Translations under genes and position numbers: made by a program
The notes under the pieces: model-generated
Databases searched by the model: none
The model's input: only the letters and a program-made list of their open reading frames with translations
Told to the model about the DNA's origin: nothing
Shown: positions 6,630 to 45,910 of the stretch, one piece after another
Numbering within the stretch: the stretch's first letter is position 1
How the letters are laid out: every line of letters begins with the position of its first letter
NCBI GenBank assembly: GCA_022925895.1
Contig: JAKSYS010000002.1
Coordinates: 62,001-126,000, forward strand
Origin: Fragilaria crotonensis
Taxonomy: Eukaryota; Bacillariophyta; Fragilariophyceae; Fragilariales; Fragilariaceae
Direction of reading: 5' to 3'
DNA: 64,000 nucleotides

Positions 6630-9601
6630 TTTGTTGTCGCTTTCGTTCGCAGGACGAATTGGAGTCGGCGGCGACTGGAAGAGTTTGACTGGAGTTGAGT
6701 CGGAAGTTGCGGCGCAGTCGGCGCAGGCGGTTGCGGAGTCACCTCCTTGGAGTCAACAACGGAGTGGCAGGGGAGGAGGCACAACGACTGGTGGTGGCGT
6801 GGCGACTTGCTCCTTGGAGGCGGCAACGGAGTTGACAGCGGAGGCGGAGCGACTGGAAGAACCTGAGGAGGAGTCGCGTTGTCGAGAGCGGTCGCGACAC
6901 GTTGCATCTGGGAAAGGAGTTCGTTGGCTTGTTCGTAGTCGGTCGACTCAACAATCAACCTTTCTTCGTCTTCATCGTCGAGGACGTATTGAAACGTAGA
7001 GTCTTGGAACATTCGTTTCCAGCTGTCGTCGTTGAAGTTCGGAAGGTCGTCGGCGGAAGCGGGAACAGTTGCGAACCAATCGTCGAAGACGATGTGAAAC
7101 TGTGGGGTAATGTACCCCGTTTGTGGATTGAGAACGAGAGGGACAGAGCTGGCATGTTTGTCCGAGAAACCGAGGTTGACCGTGCGAGTCGAACGAGGAG
7201 TCCAACGTGGCAATTTCTTGCCGTCCGAAATCATTTTGTCGAGGACGTAAACTGGACATCCCCAAACGTGAACGTCCATCAATTTCTTTGTTCCCAGCGA
7301 GTCTTTGTGAAAACGTCATGTGGGAAAGGCCAGTTCGTGGGTCAGGCATGTGGTTCACTAGGAACACAGCATGCTTGACGGCGAGGGGCCAGAGTGTGGG
7401 ATCGGCAACGTCCGGCCAATGGATGGCGAATGCAACATCATGGTCCTTGCAATGGCCATGATTGTACGAATGTTGCGTTCGGCGATTCCATTGTGATGGT
7501 GAGCGCCGACGCCAGCGAATCGGATAACTTGTTGGAACTCGGCGAGGTTGCGAGAGAACTCGGCGGACGTGAACGTTTTCGAGTTGTCGGCGAGATACTC
7601 TTGCGGCGTCACTCCTGTGTTGCGACACATTCGCTCGAAACTCTCTTTTGCCTTGAGAGTCTCGTGCGAGTTCAAGCTGACTTGGTGCTCGACAAAAATG
7701 TAACCGGAGGCGTGGTCGACGAAGATGCAACCGCCGGTATACATGTCGTCGAGTTTCGTTTTTCCGGCGGAGGTGAGTAGACGTCCGCGAGTGCTGCAAA
7801 TGAAATGGTCGACGGAGATACGCTGACCCGGGAGAAGATTGTCCGTTTTGAGAGCGTATGCTCTGTCTTTGACGACCGACGAAGGCGTCGTGCCAGGAAT
7901 TGGACGTCGATGTTGCTTGCCGTATTGACAGGCGGCACACTTTGGGAACGAGGTAAGTCGACACGCAGCAGTTTGCAATCGGCGACTTTCTTCCGTTTTG
8001 CTGACGACACCGGAACGCAGGATGAACTGGACCTTCTTGAACCCGACGTGACCCAAACGATAGTGCCAACGAAGCAATTCTTTCTCTGCTTCGTTAAGGT
8101 TGAGGTTCCTTTCGTGGACGGTGTTCACGATCGAAACGAGAGCGTCGGCGGCCTTGAAAGGATCGGTTGCGTTGTACGCTTCCGACGTTGGGAGATTGTT
8201 CTGCGGGTTGACGTTTGCAGTGACGGGTCCTCGATTGGCGTCGTTTGGAACGCCGCTGAGTGTGAGACGATTCGGTTCGATGATGATCGTTTCATCGGGG
8301 TAAGTCTGGAGGAGACTGGACGTCGAGAGGAGTCGGACTTTAATGTTGGGAACATGGAAGGCGGGGACCTTGAGAAGACGCAGATTTCCGAGTTGATCAT
8401 GGACAGCCCAAGTGACTTCGCCTTGGCCTTTGATCTGAAGGCCCTTCGCGATGCCCTTTAGTTGCGTGATCGTGCCGGGCGACGTGACGGGGCCTTCGAA
8501 ATCGGAGAGGTCGGGCGTGATGGAAATGCTGGCGCCTGAGTCCCAAATGATGGGGCTCGTGTTTGCTTTGGGTCCGAGGGCTTCTCGCATTCGAGCGGGA
8601 GCCTGAAGAGCCATGCGAAGCGGCGTGGAATGACACGCAAGGTGAACATGAGAGAGGATCTTGTTGGCGGCAGCACGTTGGTGAAACGTCAGCGGAGCAA
8701 GCGCGAACGGGTCGGGCGAGTTGGCGGGTGCCACAGGGCAATACTTCGCGGTTCGTGGCGACGGACGGGGGCGTTTGGAACACCAGGGAGGGCACGAGCG
8801 CTTGGATTTGCCACTTTCCTCTCCCTTTTGGCCTGTGGTAGGCGGTAACGTAGCAGGGCGACGGGAGTTGCGAAGCTTGTCGGCGCGACGTTGAAGACGG
8901 AGTGCGCGTTCTTTGAGAGTCGCGAAGTGACGAAAGTCGTCGCGCTCAGCAACCGTAGGAGGTCGCGAAGCGACATATCCCTGTTGTCGGAGACGGAGGG
9001 GGTACGAACGGTGTAGTTTGTTGACGCGAATGCCAGAATTGAAGCGTGGCGGAGCGAACGACTTCTTGAGGAGTCGTGAGAAACGACGACGTTGATTGCG
9101 AGTGAACGGAGGAGGAGATGAGGGAGCCGTCGAAGCAACGGGAGGTGGCTGCAGGAGCGTTGACGGGAAGACCGAGAGGAAGAGAAGGATGACCCAAACG
9201 GTGGGAGCGAACGCGAGCGTTGGGTGGCGGAGCACAACTTGGTGAAGATTGTTGGCGACCCAAGCAAAAATGGTCGTCCATGGGATGGCGGAAGCCAAAT
9301 AGATAGCTAGGTTAACCAGAATAGGAACCATAGCACAAATGGCAAAAGAAAAAGCAAGAAGTAGCCATGGGTTCGCACCTCGGATGAGGTTTAGGAGCGA
9401 ACGAGAAGAGGGCGCAATGTGTGGCTTGACTGGAAAGTCAAGCAGCCAAACGGAGGGATCCGGCGCCAACATGCTGAGATTTGCCCTTGGCGACGGTGCC
9501 GGAGCAGGAGGACGACGTTCTCCACCGGTGTGAGTGGCGGTCGTGTGCGTGACTGTCCAACGACGACACTTCTCGCACCAGTTGAAGGTTTTATCCTTCA
9601 C
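6626..9601 (-). CDS. Copia element A: CCHH motif, hydrophobic segments, protease and integrase (frameshifted)
   Basis: The main frame (7358-9601) opens with FNWCEKCRRWTVTHTTATH, a CX2C-X6-H-X4-H zinc-type motif, then hydrophobic stretches (about 9150-9390, including LLLAFSFAICAMVPILV and VWVILLFLSVF), a basic region, the aspartic protease motif WDSGAS, a GAG-pre-integrase domain (WHYRLGH...CAACQYGKQHR) and the integrase core (ISVDHF, YLADNSKTF, NGIAERNIRT). Single-base frameshifts near 7440 and 7290 move the rest into two other frames, ending with VHVWGCPVYVLDKM and HIVFDDWFA. The frame upstream is the same one as gag, separated only by a TAA at 9706-9704. Confidence 0.88.
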
Positions 9602-36797: not shown

Positions 36798-38711
36798 CGA
36801 ACGTCGTTAAGTCACATGCCCGTTACACGGTCCAGTCCGCTCAGCAGTTGATTGAAAAACAGCTCGAGCTCTATGACAAGTACGACAAGACGAATGACAA
36901 AGCAGCACGCACGTACCTACTTGCGTCGCTCACACCGTTGCTCAGTAACAAGGTCACGGAGAAGCTTGACGAATCAGATCCGTTTCCGATTGTCTGGCTT
37001 CAATTCTTGAAGGCCATTCAATCGACCTCTATCGAGAGATTCGAAGACCTCAAGTCGTCGATCAAGCTACGCCTTCCAAGTCAGTACCCGGGAAAACTTG
37101 GAACAGCTCGCCGCCCAGTTCAGAAAGGATGCTCTCGAACTCACCACCGCCGGCCAATACGATCACAACTTGACGTTGTCGATGATGAAGATTTTCCTCC
37201 TCGCTGGAGGATCGGGCAACGAAGACTTCCGCTTTCCACTCCGTGCGACCAAGCAGAAGCTCGAACAAGCTCTCCTTGACATCGGTTTTAAGGAGAAGAC
37301 CGCTGCGAATGATCACATGAGTTCACTCAGACTCACGTACAAGGATATTTGCACTCAGGCCGAGGATACGTACCGTACCCTTTTCGATCGCAAAGAATGG
37401 CCACCGGCCAGGCACGCTCGTGATTCCAAGGCTCCGCCACCTGCGTTTGGAAATCTTGCCGTCGAGGTGAATGCTCCCATCACCCGAGCGGAAGTTCTCA
37501 CTTTGATGCAGAACAAACCCCGCGTCGGCGGCAGCCCAACTAAGAAACCTGGCAACTGCAACAAATGCGGGAAGCCAGGACACTGGGCAAACGAGTGCCC
37601 TGACAAGCAGCAAAGCTCCAATCCTCGTTCCCAACGCAATCAGAGCAATCGTCAGGCACATGTCAGTGCATCTCGCAAGCCTGGTTGGCGTTCCACGCCA
37701 CCAGCTGCCGGTGCTCCAACTACAAAGAAGACGGACACCCACACGTTCAACTGGTGTGCTTCTTGCAAAAGGTGGACGACCACTCATTCGACAGAAACAC
37801 ACACTGGCGTCTCTCGAAACACCGTTTCCAATGGCACTCCTGCCGCAAGCTCCACCGCCATGCTCTCTCTTGTCCAAGACCCATCGGTGTGGATCACAGA
37901 AACTCAGAGAATGCCAGACATCAGTGATTTGTTGTATGCCTTCTCCATCCTTCCGTTCTTCTTCAAAGTTGTCTTCCTTCTCGCCATGCTCCCTTTGGTT
38001 GGTCCGATTGTCTGGTTCGTTGACACCTTCGTCGTACCCATTCTCCTTCCGATCTGGCGATTCGACTATGCGATCGTGCTCCGCACTCTTTCGACAAGCA
38101 TCCTTCCATTCGTCGATCGCTTCCCGTCGTTTGTCGCCGCCAACTACACCGCCTTCCTTGCTCCGCTCTTCTGGGTTGCAGTAACGAGTTACAGTTGGTG
38201 TCAACTTCGCGCTGTCTCACAGCCCAATCTCGAAGGCCCTGCGGTACACGCGATGTCTCGCACCGAGTATCGTCGTCATCGACACGAGTTGCTCCGCAAC
38301 CGTCGTCGTCCTCGTGTCGTTCATCAGAGCATTAAGACGGAGGGTCTTCATCGGAAGTACCCTCTCAATCTTCGCTCGATGGGTCACTACGTCCGTAAAC
38401 ACCAAGCGCCAACGGTCGAGGAACAACGACTTCGCGACGAAATTCGCAAAATTCAAATTCGAGTACACGCCTTGGAACGTGAAGTCAGTTTGCTCAGCAA
38501 ACTCAACTACTACGATCCTACGCTTGAGTCACCTTGGCAACGTCAACAACAAGTTCCCGATGTACGTCGTGAGGAAACCCGGTCAGACATGGTCAATCCG
38601 GTAATCGTGTTCGTCCGAACTTACATCCCAACTCTCCGACCGTTAATCGGGCAGCCGGCCGTCCATTTTATGGACAGCAACCCGACGTTCACCGGCACCT
38701 GTTGTACCTGA
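36794..38711 (+). CDS. Copia element B: Gag with CCHC knuckle, CCHH motif and hydrophobic segments (frameshifted)
   Basis: Opens MTNVVKSHARYTVQSAQQ; capsid-like region with LYDKYDKTNDKA and WLQFLKAIQSTSIERFEDL. Near 37087-37092 (cccggg) the frame slips by two missing bases relative to element A and continues as LEQLAAQFRKDA, FLLAGGSGNEDFRFPLRATK and the knuckle CNKCGKPGHWANECP. After a linker comes FNWCASCKRWTTTHSTETH (CX2C-X6-H-X4-H), then about 100 residues with three or four membrane-like segments (FFFKVVFLLAMLPLVGPIVW, VVPILLPIW, AFLAPLFWVAVTSYSW; about 37930-38210) and a basic region. The frame ends at 38711, short of the protease, where a further shift is needed. Confidence 0.85.
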
Positions 38712-40932
38712 TCGCCCAGCCTCCCGTCAGCCTCATACTGTCGATGCCAACGATGCCTATTACCGTCCTACTGACCCCGAATACGACCGTAACTCGGTGG
38801 ATGCACACATGGCTCGTATTGGTGCTCCAACTCTTCTCGAACGTGTCGCCTTATTGGCACCAAGTCGATTCAGAGCTGCGATGTCACCAGAGTCGACGTT
38901 CTCTGTGATTTGGGATTCTGGTGCTAGCGTCACCATCTCCCCTGAGAAGCTTGATTTTGTCGGTCCTTTGTCCCGTCCCAGTACCATCACTCAATTGAAT
39001 GGCATCGCAAAAGGCTTGCGAATCGAAGGAGAAGGAAAAGTTCACTGGTCGTTCCACGACTCCACCGGCAAACTTCGAACGCTCGAGCTCCCAGCTTACT
39101 ACGTCCCAAAGATCAGAGTACGTCTCTTGTCCACTACCAGTCTTCTTCAGACGTATTCCGATGAAACGATCAAGGTCGAAGCGCACCGATTGACGATGAG
39201 CGGAGTCCCCGACGATCCGAATCGATCACCAATTGTTGCACATGTCAATCCTGACAACAACCTGCCAACCTCGCAAGCTTATCGCCAGCCAGCCATTCTT
39301 CCTGCCGCAGAATGCCTCAACGCAACCATCTCCGCGGTCAACGAAGCGAATCTCAACCTCTCCGAACCTGAGAAAGAGCTCCTTCGTTGGCACTATCGAC
39401 TCGGTCACATCAGCTTTCGGAAGATTCAGTTTTTGATGCGCTCAGGTGTCTTAACCAAAAGCAACAACAAGCGAAAACTTCATCAAGCGGCATGTTCCTT
39501 GACGGAGTTACCAAAGTGTGCTGCCTGCCAGTATGGCAAACAGCATCGTCGACCAGCGCCTGGACGAGTCAGTACGGCAGTACGTGATCGCGAAGGTGTT
39601 CTGAAAGATGGACACTTGGTCCCAGGACAACAAGTTTCGGTCGATCATTTTGTGAGCAGCACCAAGGGCAGACTCTTCACATCCGCAGGAAGGAGTCTCA
39701 ACAGTGAGCTGTATTCTGGCGGATGTCTTTTCAATGATCACGCCTCTGGCTTCGTTCACATCGAGTTCCAAACTCATTTGAACACGCACGAAACTCTGAT
39801 GGCAAAGGAAAACTTTGAACTCATGTGCCGAGACCATGGTGTGATCCCGCAATCGTATCTATCAGACAATGCAAAGTGTTTCACTACGAAGGCTTTTACT
39901 GAAAGGTTAAGTCTATTTGAGCAGATTGTGCGATTTGCTGGTGTCGGTGCTCATCACCACAACGGCAACGCCGAACGCAGCATCCAAACCATCATGTCCA
40001 TTGCTCGGACGATGATGTTACACTCGGCCATTCATTGGCCCGACGTCGCCGACGCTTCACTTTGGCCAATGGCTGTGCAGCATGCTGTTTTCCTTCACAA
40101 TCACATGCCGAATCAAGTCTCTGGCCTTTCCCCTGTCGACGTGTTCACAAAATCCAGATGGCAACAACATAAGTTTCATGATCTTCATGTTTGGGGCTGT
40201 CCGGTTTATGTCTTGGACAAGTCGATTGCTGATGGAAAGAAGCTTCCACGTTGGAAACCTCGCAGCACTCGTTGCGTGAACATGGGATTGTCAAGCAAAC
40301 ACGCAAGCACCGTTCCGATCGTTCTCAATCCATCGACGGGCTACATCACTCCGCAATTCCATATTGTTTTTGATGATTGGTTCTCGACCATCACTTCATC
40401 GCTTGAAAGTCTTCCTGACTTCAATTCCCGCGCATGGGCACAACTCTTCGGCGAATCCTACTTCCAGTACCCATTCGACGACGAGGACGAAACAGAAATG
40501 TCGATCAATGATGATCCAACATCCGACGCCATCGTTGCCAACACACTTCGCAACATGGACTCTGTCGCGACTGCAATGGACACATCATCTCCACCGACTC
40601 CATTTCCTGTTTCGCCGCCACCGACAACTCAGTTTCCAACTACGCCAACTCTCCTTGACAGCTCTACGCCTCCGCGCCCGATCTCGTCAACGAGGGAGAC
40701 AGTACATCAACAGCACGACGTCGTCGACAATTCCATTGTTGTCCGACTTCGACGCCTGTTGCAACGGTTGACTCGATTGTTCGCGCCCCACCATTCCCAT
40801 TACTCCCCAACACCTCCCGTTCTCCGACCTCGAAACTCCTCGCGCACCGACTCCTTTGCCTACGCCTCCGCGTCCACCATCTCCGTCTCCGACCCGGATG
40901 TCTCCAATGAGGGAGACAACATCGACGAATGA
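38712..40932 (+). CDS. Copia element B: protease and integrase
   Basis: An unbroken frame from about 38700 to 40932. The aspartic protease motif WDSGASVTISP is followed by a GAG-pre-integrase domain (LLRWHYRLGHISFRKIQFL ... CAACQYGKQHRRPAPG, an HHCC zinc site) and the integrase core with its DDE acids in VSVDHF, YLSDNAKCF and NGNAERSIQT. The C-terminal part has HVWGCPVYVLDK and ITPQFHIVFDDWF, then a Pro/Ser/Thr-rich linker. A shift near 40800-40860 passes to the reverse transcriptase frame. Function: polyprotein cleavage and insertion of the cDNA into host DNA. Confidence 0.9.
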
Positions 40933-42741
40933 TACGTCGTCAGCAAAGGAACCACCATCCGCGCCCGTTCGCTCATCTGCTCCAAGCCCAGCACCAGTCG
41001 TTCGTCATTCGCCTCGCCGTTCCACTCGCCAACGCAATGCACCTTCTCGACTCGGCTACGATGGAAATCAAGGCGCCGGATACTTTGTCGAACCCAGCGC
41101 TTGGATCTTTCAAGAATGTGGTTTTCTTGGTCCTCCGCTCGCTCTCAAAGCCTCTCTCTCCGATCCCGACACTCTGACGTACGATGAAGCGATGTCAGAT
41201 GAACCGAATCTCTCGAAGTGGATGGCAGCCGCTGCGAAAGAGATTGCCAGTTTGGAGAAGAACAAGACGTGGATTGAAACGGAAATATCGAACGCCAAGT
41301 CTCGAATTTTACCGGGCACTTGGGTTTTCAAACGCAAACGGACACCTGACGGTGTGATAAGCAAGTACAAGGCACGGTACTGCGTACGAGGTGACTTGGA
41401 AGAAGGTGAACCTGAAACCTTCGCACCCGTGGTCGCGTGGAGCTCCGTTCGCCTATTTACAATCCTTGCTCTGACGCTCAATTGGGACACAAGTTCTATT
41501 GACTTTAGCAACGCATTTGTCCAGGCTAAGTTGGAAACGCCTGTTTGGATTCATCTACCTCGCGGATTCCAATCTCCACGTGGAAAGTCTACGTGCCTAC
41601 AACTTGTCAAAGTTTGTATGGTTTATCTGTCGCTCCGCGACTTTGGTTTGAACATGTTCTCGAGGCGTTCACCGATCAAGGCTTCAAACAGAGCACCTTG
41701 GATCCATGCTTCTTGTTCAAGGACACCATCATGGTCGTCCTCTATGTCGATGACGTCGGAATTGCGTACGCGAACGAGTCCGATTTGAATAAACTGCTCG
41801 ACGGTCTCGAACGACGTGGACTACAGTTCACAAAGGAGGGCACGTTCACGGATTTCCTTGGCATTAAATTTGTTAAGGATGCTACGAATAACACCGTCAC
41901 GCTCACCCAGAAAGGACTGATCCAGCGAATCATCGACGCCACGGGAATGGCTGACTGCAACCCAAATTGGACGCCAGCTATTCAACTTCCACTCGGCATC
42001 GATCCTGACGGTGAACCGTACAATGAATCCTGGAGCTATCCTTCCATCGTTGGAATGCTCCTCTATCTCTCTACGAATACTCGACCTGACATCGCCTTCG
42101 CCGTCAGTCAAGTTGCACGCTTCAACCACAGCCCAAAGAAGAGTCACGCCACTGCCATCAAGACCATCATCCGATACTTGCATCGCACTGCTGACAAAGG
42201 CACTATCGTTCGTCCCACTGGTGACCTTTCCATTGATTGCTACGTTGACGCCGATTTCGCCGGCTTGCATGGTCGCGACCCCGACTATGAGCCCTCAAGC
42301 GCCAAGTCCAGAACTGGATACATCATTACGCTTGGCGGATGTCCAATTCTTTGGAAATCGAAGCTTCAAACCGAAATCTCTTTGTCGACTCTCGAATCGG
42401 AATACTCAGCTCTCAGCGCCAGCATGAGAACGCTCCTTCCACTCCGATCGCTCCTCAGTGAAGTGATCGCTGCGCTCCGACTTCCACCACAGTTCAAGTC
42501 GACGATTCGATGTCGTGTCTTTGAAGACAACAACGGCGCTCTTCTTCTTGCAACCAAGCAACGAATCACCAACAGAACGAAGTACTTCCTTGTCAAATGG
42601 CACTTCTTCTGGAGTCATGTCACCAACGGAGACGTCAGTATTCTGAAGGTCGACACGAAAGAACAGTGGGCTGATTATCTCACTAAAGGTCTCAACCGTG
42701 AGACTTTCGAGCACATACGCAAGCTCGTGCAAGGATGGTAA
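40856..42741 (+). CDS. Copia element B: reverse transcriptase and RNase H (one frameshift)
   Basis: The first frame shows ILPGTWVFKRKRTPDGVISK, ARYCVRGDLEEGEPETFAP and DFSNAFVQA; a one-base loss in AAA at 41609-41611 then shifts to the second frame with YGLSVAPRLW, VVLYVDDVGIAY (intact YVDD), VDADFAGLHGRDPD, LESEYSALSA and EDNNGALLL (RNase H acids), ending QWADYLTKGLNRE...KLVQGW. Apart from the shift every catalytic residue I can check is present, so this copy could be active if the gap is a sequencing error. Confidence 0.9.
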
Positions 42742-43676: not shown

Positions 43677-45910
43677 ATGGTCCACACTCACAAAATTATG
43701 TCGCTAGCAACCCTGTTCATTTGTCTCTGTGCGTCAGGGGCACACCCATCGATATGGGGCACCCCTCACTGGAAAGTGCGAGGAGGAGAACAGGCCACTA
43801 CTGCCCTCGGGGACGACAAACCCCAATCACTAGACGAAAAAGTTCGCAATGCCATGCGAAAATTGGGTCTCAGTGCCCCGGCAATGCCACAGGAAGATGA
43901 ACCTGAAGGTGAAGAGTGTGAGGGCGGTGCGTGTCCACTGCCCACCGAAGAGAAAGTTACGACGGCAGCGGTCGAACAAGAAAGCGCTTTCGACATGGCT
44001 GTGCGCATCGCTTCAGATATGGGCGTCAACAAGGATCTGGCCATGGCAGCACTTGGCGCAACAGGAGAAATTTCCCCAGGGAGCGACCCCAAGTTGAACG
44101 AGGACGCTGCCAGGGCAATGATTCAACAGGAGCTGGACATTATTCAAGGTGTTCCTGATGACAATGAGGATGTCCAACAACTTGTTTCAGAAGGTCACGA
44201 GATCTTTTTGGCTCGAAGAGCACTGGCTTTTGCGGAAGGAAACATGCAAGACGCAAGAGCGATCCTTGTTGCTGATCAGATGGATGCCGAGGAGGAAAGC
44301 AGAGCGGAGAAGGAAGCACAAAAGGCAGCTGAGGAAGCAGATATTGAAGCTGCAGCGCGAGCCAAATTGAGAGACGAAGCTGCGGCCACGAAGAAGGCGC
44401 CGATGATGAAAAGTGTGAGCGTGGATGCAAACTTTGATCCAACTATTTCCGGATTAGGGGCTACTTCAACAAAACCTCAGTCACCTTCAGGAATCTCCCC
44501 TCCAAAACCTGCCCAAAAGTCAGAGGTAGTTTTTGAGGCCACCACTGCTCAAATTCAGGAATTAGTTCTCGAATCACCGGTTCCAGTTCTGTTAGATTGC
44601 TACGCTCCTTGGTGTGGACCTTGCAAGGCATTAACGCCCATTTTGGAAGATATCGCCATCAAGGGTGGAGGAGCGTTTCGTCTTGTCAAAGTCAACACTG
44701 ACAACGAGCGCCCCGTTTCTGCTGCACTCGAGGTCACAGCGCTTCCGACAATCTATGCTGTTCGCGATGGAAAGATTATAAATAGCTTCCAGGGGATGCC
44801 TTCTGGGGAGGAAATGATGAAGAACTTCTTGATGGGCCTGCTGATGCCTGGCGCTAAGCTGTTTCTGCAGAGGAAATGGCAAAGTACGATGAGTTATCGA
44901 CAAAGCTGGCCAAAACTGCTGGCGCTGCATCATTTTCCTTCTCGGCGCGCGAGCGCCTTCAGACTCGCATGGCCGTGCAGCTGGAAGCACTGGTCCAGGC
45001 ACATGGTGGCAACATGGCCGACGCGGAAGACTCGGCAAAAGTGGTCCGGTCGCTGATCTCTGGTGTCATTCGCGAACCATATTCTATGAAGTTCCGTCGA
45101 ATCAATTTGCAAAACAAAAAGGTAGCATCCTTGGTGGCAGCGTACCCGCCGTGTCTTGCAATCCTAAAGAGTGTTGGTTTCGGGATGGAAGCGAGTGGGA
45201 ATGCAATGGTGGCCGGATTGAACAAAAAGGTTGTCAACGTTTCACCACTTTCTGTAGCAAGAGACTGCGTTGACAAATGGATTGATAAGAATCGCCACAC
45301 AGTTGCAGCTGATTTGAGGAAGCGTAAGGACGAAGAAGAGCGAATGAAGCTGGCTGCCCTAGGAGCCGCTGTTGAAGACGAGGAAGAGGACGGCGATGGG
45401 GAGGCTAACGAGAACCCTGACGCAGTTACCCTGAAGGTGCGTTTCGAAGGAAAGAAAAAAATGCACAGCATAGAAATGCATGCGGACGATTCGCTGGGCA
45501 TGATCATCGGCAAGCTTCCTGTTACAATAAACGACGGGGAAGAATTTCAAATCACCTCTGTGGCAAAGAAGTTGATTGTCAAGTCTGTTGAGCGCGACAA
45601 GCTCGCACTAAGCTTGCGCTCACTTGGACTGACTCCAACCGCTGCGATTGTCGTCAAGATTGGAAGCCAAGCGAAGACGGAATCACCGTCGAGTCTAAAG
45701 GACAGAGTGGCCGCCAATAAGAACCTTAAGAAAGGTAGCCATTCCATGCATAGCATTGGCCTTTACGCCAAAGATGACAATGTCAAGGGGAATCTTGTCG
45801 ACGGCGGTGGGGGAGTCATGTATGAACAGGAGGTCACCGATGACGAAGACGAAGGGGCCGAGAATGTGGAAGAGCAAGCCGACCAGAGCCAGGAGAACGA
45901 CGAACAGTAG
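43677..45910 (+). CDS. Secretory-leader thioredoxin-PUB-UBX protein (candidate SELMA component; one frameshift)
   Basis: Frames 43677-44862 and about 44866-45910 join into one protein of about 744 residues if one T is restored in the TTT run at 44863-44865 (reading then passes through SAEEMAKYDE). Order: leader (MSLATLFICLCASGAHPSIW), acidic region with UBA-like helices, thioredoxin domain with intact APWCGPCK (about residue 312), a PUB domain (SGVIREPYSMKFRRINLQNK ... CLAILKSVGFGM), and a UBX/ubiquitin-like domain (VTLKVRFEGKKKMHSIEMHA), then an acidic tail. PUB and UBX domains bind the AAA ATPase CDC48/p97. Predicted cleavage leaves no aromatic +1 residue, which favours the periplastidal space or ER over the stroma. 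Confidence 0.75.

Follow-up and report, generated by a model that had tools for sequence, protein, structure and literature searches.

A leader-bearing thioredoxin-PUB protein of an alga with a complex plastid: a candidate periplastidal accessory of SELMA

One nuclear gene in the stretch of DNA analysed here probably encodes a thioredoxin-PUB protein whose domains and leader suggest a place in the periplastidal compartment, in an alga with a complex plastid; there it would be an accessory of SELMA, the protein-import motor that such plastids owe to a Cdc48 of symbiont origin. We put the probability of this reading at roughly 60%. The window, by which we mean the whole 64 kb stretch, is part of contig C327 of a genome of 62.1 Mb in 881 contigs, which was searched for the comparisons given below.

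The gene itself is real. It lies on the forward strand in two overlapping open frames, whose reading frames differ by one. The upstream frame (43677..45056, +) runs from a secretory leader into a thioredoxin domain, with its last ~65 codons lying beyond a frame break, and the downstream frame (44858..45910, +; 350 aa, first ATG at 44876) contains a PUB domain and a further C-terminal domain. An extra cysteine pair, CEGGAC (residues 81-86; 43917..43934, +), is followed by an acidic, helical N-terminal region (43965..44384, +), which is all helix in an AF2 single-sequence model (mean pLDDT 67). By eye this region is UBA-like, an assignment that we rejected given no Pfam family at E<=10 and a top Foldseek match at E 0.38. 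For the thioredoxin domain (44529..44822, +), residues 285-382 match PF00085 over profile positions 2-99 of 103 with 71.8 bits against a cut-off of 23.5 (E 5.3e-20), the CxxC motif is present as CGPC at 44613-44624, and 261 distinct PDB sequences are found at E<=0.001. The complete thioredoxin with the site APWCGPCK that a preliminary description of this DNA had read from the letters is borne out by the PF00085 match. The aspartate ahead of CGPC and the proline of TALPT presumably match the positions of active thioredoxins, by comparison with the E. coli protein. Relatives of the gene were absent from tblastn searches of viral_contigs (four pattern matches) and genome_contigs (52), both of which are poor sources for algal genes. 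Elsewhere in the window lie pieces of Copia-type retroelements. On the forward strand they span 37098-42741, with a zinc knuckle, GAG-pre-integrase and RVT_2 in overlapping frames, and stop ~0.9 kb upstream of the thioredoxin-PUB gene; on the reverse strand, a piece at 7358-9601 holds GAG-pre-integrase.

What might the PUB domain hold on to? The domain (45029..45193, +) matches positions 6-60 of 82 of the PF09409 profile at E 1e-7 to 2e-8, and its score is borderline, with 32.0 bits for the 350-aa frame, 34.3 for the trimmed segment and 34.9 in a six-frame search of the genome, against a Pfam cut-off of 34.3; the PUB domain previously noticed in the next frame is thus recovered at the cut-off. 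In human PNGase, the PUB residues that bind the DLYG end of p97 are N41, K50, Y51 and R55, according to excerpted text of PMC8181520. The corresponding columns, read by eye, hold G, K, F and N in the window PUB, one of the four being identical. Its changed contact residues are less telling than they appear, given that two of eight other PUB domains of the genome (C108 and C29) likewise have neither N41 nor a basic side chain at position 55; these eight were aligned out of nine other matches, C170 being omitted for want of a frame to read. As for the partner, a single CDC48_N search of the genome gave two matches in all, a host-type Cdc48 ending in DLYS and a symbiont Cdc48 ending in DDEE. Simple docking of the PUB domain on CDC48 appears weakened, because the symbiont Cdc48 that was found has no LY end and two of the four PUB contact residues differ.

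Could the same protein, in the same place, use its PUB domain with a partner other than Cdc48? It would then be a general periplastidal thioredoxin, resembling ATrx2 of Toxoplasma in place and not in sequence. The contact residues and the DDEE end both speak for this, as does the precedent of a large periplastid thioredoxin with extensions in Toxoplasma (PMC5823475, in part). We nevertheless consider it rather unlikely, as the same two positions are changed in two other PUB domains of the genome, and heterokonts usually have two symbiont Cdc48s, of which one keeps the HbYX end in most such species, according to excerpted text of PMC5070193. The partner of the PUB domain may be such a second symbiont Cdc48, beyond the CDC48_N matches, or the interaction may be altered.

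The domain that follows the PUB domain (45401..45709, +) had been described as UBX-like, and we rejected this identity; no family was established for the segment. Taken in isolation, it matched no Pfam family at E<=10 and no UBX chain of the PDB at E<=10. A home-made UBX profile of five sequences ranked shuffles in all eight top places, out of 200, with the real segment below them, and in hhalign three of 60 shuffles beat the real segment in E-value. A search of the whole genome with the UBX family (PF00789) gave four places, the thioredoxin-PUB gene not being among them. UBX domains carry an FPR motif in their S3-S4 loop; SVAKK stands in its place here in a by-eye alignment that is itself unsupported. 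The AF2 single-sequence model of the domain has a mean pLDDT of 46 and was set aside. The proposal of two CDC48-binding modules in one protein is thus unsupported: the UBX domain failed every test, the contact residues of the PUB domain differ, and the symbiont Cdc48 was found without an LY end.

Cofactors of the UBXD7/UBXD8/FAF1 type have a UBA-UAS-UBX architecture and thus, as the window protein may do, place a thioredoxin-like fold in a Cdc48 cofactor. UBXD1 and plant PUX2 (PUB plus UBX) share with it the order of a PUB and then a C-terminal domain; to our knowledge, they have neither a thioredoxin nor a leader. A further frame of the genome, on C108, reads by eye as a host-type UBA-PUB-UBX-like protein, and another, at C10:64500-69000, has beside its PUB domain a membrane segment and, by eye, a VHL-like stretch. 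The UAS domain of the UBXD7/UBXD8/FAF1 type is described as being without CxxC in the part of PMC8181520 consulted, whereas the window protein has a full CGPC, its UBX and UBA domains being unsupported. As in the window protein, a thioredoxin stands in a Cdc48/ERAD context in C. elegans PNG-1, a PNGase with a thioredoxin (PMC9102325, in part), and at C248:40500-45500 of the same genome. The 918-aa frame of this latter locus is PNGase-like, its nucleoredoxin-like thioredoxin being followed by a PUB domain, a host-type pairing of both; by eye it has a PNGase-type core, of which the window protein has none.

Within the periplastidal space, redox proteins are already known: a diatom thioredoxin h has an ER/periplastidic presequence (PMC2173943, in part), and Toxoplasma has ATrx2. 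The site of ATrx2 is CDHC or CEYC and that of the window protein is CGPC, and in the searched text of PMC5823475 ATrx2 has no PUB or UBX domain, whereas the window protein has a PUB. In SELMA itself, sPUB and sUBX are listed among the parts in Phaeodactylum tricornutum (PMC6610115, in a table citing Stork et al., 2012). The window protein is PUB-type like diatom sPUB, the latter being known here by its listed name alone, and our reading of the window protein is that of a SELMA accessory of the sPUB type which bears a thioredoxin. Searches of open-licence literature gave no fusion of a thioredoxin with PUB or UBX within SELMA among the listings and excerpts consulted; if sPUB has a thioredoxin, the window protein would be its ordinary orthologue.

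Where would the protein be delivered? Its secretory leader, as claimed before, is present and reads MVHTHKIMSLATLFICLCASGAHPSIWGTP from the first ATG at 43677, the methionine of the preliminary description being the second ATG at 43698. The signal peptide comprises residues 1-22, MVHTHKIMSLATLFICLCASGA (43677..43742, +), with a hydrophobic 8-mer score of 2.79 and a cleavage site set by eye. It is followed by a short basic stretch resembling a transit peptide, HPSIWGTPHWKVRGG (43743..43787, +; net charge +2), which ends in RGG at 43779-43787; a copy of the leader on a noisy second contig, C445, has one GGA codon less and reads RG. The probable +1 residue after predicted signal cleavage is, by eye, His. 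In diatoms, F, W, Y and L are the sole +1 residues that permit plastid import, according to excerpted text of PMC2173943, with which the earlier rule that an aromatic +1 residue is needed to pass beyond the compartment is in line. The predicted +1 His fits the periplastidal space.

The remainder of the genome provides the context for this assignment. With 61 matches to light-harvesting proteins, the organism is a photosynthetic alga, and F stands at +1 (by eye) in all six light-harvesting leaders read, five of them distinct, from eight loci. SELMA-type genes are present in the same genome, which in this respect contains SELMA: leaders are borne by a Cdc48 (C402), two derlins (C306 and C719), an Hsp70 (C186; ten starts read of 36 matches) and an E2 (C549; eight starts read of 27 matches). 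These genes are named by domain and leader, and their role in SELMA is presumptive. The host-type Cdc48 (C240) has no leader, nor have the other derlins in the frames read. By eye, the probable +1 residue of all five SELMA-type leaders is none of F, W, Y and L.

A thioredoxin of the secretory route or the ER lumen, without a plastid role, would be compatible with the leader, which is a plain signal peptide with just a 15-residue basic stretch up to RGG; it is very improbable, as the protein ends in NDEQ and so has no KDEL-type or other ER-retention end, RGG is common to the SELMA-type leaders and occurs in none of the four ER leaders compared, and PUB domains operate with cytosol-type Cdc48. 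Periplastidal location, as first proposed, remains the best reading of the non-aromatic +1 residue, the missing ER-retention end and the RGG shared with five SELMA-type leaders.

How informative is the RGG motif? It occurs in all five SELMA-type leaders as well as in the thioredoxin-PUB leader, in one of ten leaders with F at +1 and in none of the four ER leaders, hence in one of the 14 stromal-type or ER leaders within a comparison of 20 hand-picked leaders whose classes were set by eye. The Fisher value for this distribution, 0.0005, is partly post hoc, because the motif had caught attention on the thioredoxin-PUB gene, the derlins and Cdc48 before the leaders of Hsp70 and E2 were examined. 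Among 29 signal-like ORFs, RGG was seen in four, namely the thioredoxin-PUB gene, the two derlins and one lipase-like ORF. Eleven of the 29 were used and 18 dropped (membrane, spurious, unclear or with leucine at +1), none of the 18 having RGG. The lipase-like ORF, on C328, has a leader with F at +1 and yet reads LLRGG, so that the motif is not peculiar to leaders of the periplastidal kind.

RGG is also the C-terminal end of ubiquitin. It is conceivable, albeit a long shot, that in this alga the leaders of periplastidal proteins finish on a ubiquitin-like [LIVMP]RGG, behind whose GG a deubiquitinase-type protease residing in the compartment may cut them, with the thioredoxin-PUB protein as one client. 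If true, such trimming would couple the removal of transit peptides to the ubiquitin system on which SELMA runs. A literature search combining RGG, periplastid and transit peptide gave only one paper, on Toxoplasma PUBL, which has an RGG just ahead of its ubiquitin-like domain that is termed a potential deubiquitinase site (PMC5487736, in part). That RGG is dispensable and seemingly unprocessed in the same excerpted source, which counts against cleavage at RGG there. That Hsp70, Cdc48, derlins and E2 have RGG in their leaders implies that the motif is not confined to ubiquitin-like proteins. The RGG of the five SELMA-type leaders offers a cheap, testable mark for recognising periplastidal proteins, and it is a candidate for the site at which they are cleaved during processing.

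The reading as one protein requires that the two open frames belong together. The coding signal was scanned by codon log-odds, with nine other ORFs from the window serving as the training set; it follows frame 0 until ~44858 and frame 2 from there on, with no gap between. The best switch interval, ..GGCGCTAAGCTGTTTCTGCAGAGG.. (44856..44871, +), includes 44863-44865, where the frame break had already been placed, and over ~1 kb the codon signal of the PUB half equals that of the thioredoxin half in strength. These observations fit a single gene with one indel across the break. The suggestion that exactly one T is missing agrees with the switch interval but is unproven, as the second copy on C445, which is 98% identical, likewise reads TTT and shares the frame there. 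C445 neither proves nor refutes the missing T, because it drops bases freely, shortening ten of 46 four-base runs and eight of 11 five-base runs. Directly upstream of the break, the two copies differ by three bases, a difference that preserves the frame.

Alternatively, an intron might restore the frame. There are 212 GT-AG pairs that would do so at the junction, two of them sparing both domains, together with at least eight GC-AG pairs. The two sparing pairs are 44884..44987 (+), GTACGAT..GTGCAG, with 104 bases, a GC content of 0.577 and an in-frame-2 coding score of 5.6 over 34 codons, and 44893-44987 (+). Neither of these introns would require a sequence error in either contig. The donor GTACG of the former is similar to GTACGT in the symbiont Cdc48 gene, and 104 bases is an ordinary intron length; against it, the candidate introns of that Cdc48 gene, among those listed, have a GC content of 0.44-0.52 versus 0.577. 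Coding is favoured for 44888-44986, because its score of 5.2 in frame 2 beats 86% of 148 true coding windows and is attained by 0.8% of 613 intergenic windows free of stops and by none of 84 wrong-frame windows. We thus prefer a missing base, the 104-base intron being less likely; either way, leader, thioredoxin and PUB would come to lie in one protein. A programmed -1 shift was rejected, as CTGTTTC holds no slippery heptamer by eye. The residues just past the break (~44862-44945), SAEEMAKYDELSTKLAKTAGAASFSF, look by eye like Cdc48's tail helix, which in the host protein reads SDRDLAQYASFAQTLQ..ASFAF.

A decaying gene, with a frameshift that is real in both copies and a product of leader and thioredoxin alone, could draw on the frame that the two contigs share at the break but is hard to credit, as the PUB half matches the thioredoxin half in codon signal for ~1 kb, C445 is too noisy as a witness, an intron could equally explain the shared frame, and the three-base difference beside the break preserves it.

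How might a thioredoxin-PUB protein serve SELMA? We picture that its leader would carry it into the ER and that the basic stretch behind the signal peptide, which is short and has a +1 residue that is not aromatic, would allow passage through the second membrane via SELMA, followed by retention in the periplastidal space. Inside that space, the complete thioredoxin would be tethered to the Cdc48 machinery by the PUB domain and might reduce the ER-made disulfides of ubiquitin-tagged preproteins while these are being threaded. Disulfide handling would in this manner be linked to preprotein translocation. If the protein does reside there, complex plastids may import their proteins by a motor to which a reductase is tethered, which would explain how disulfide-bearing preproteins are opened for threading after their passage through the oxidising ER.
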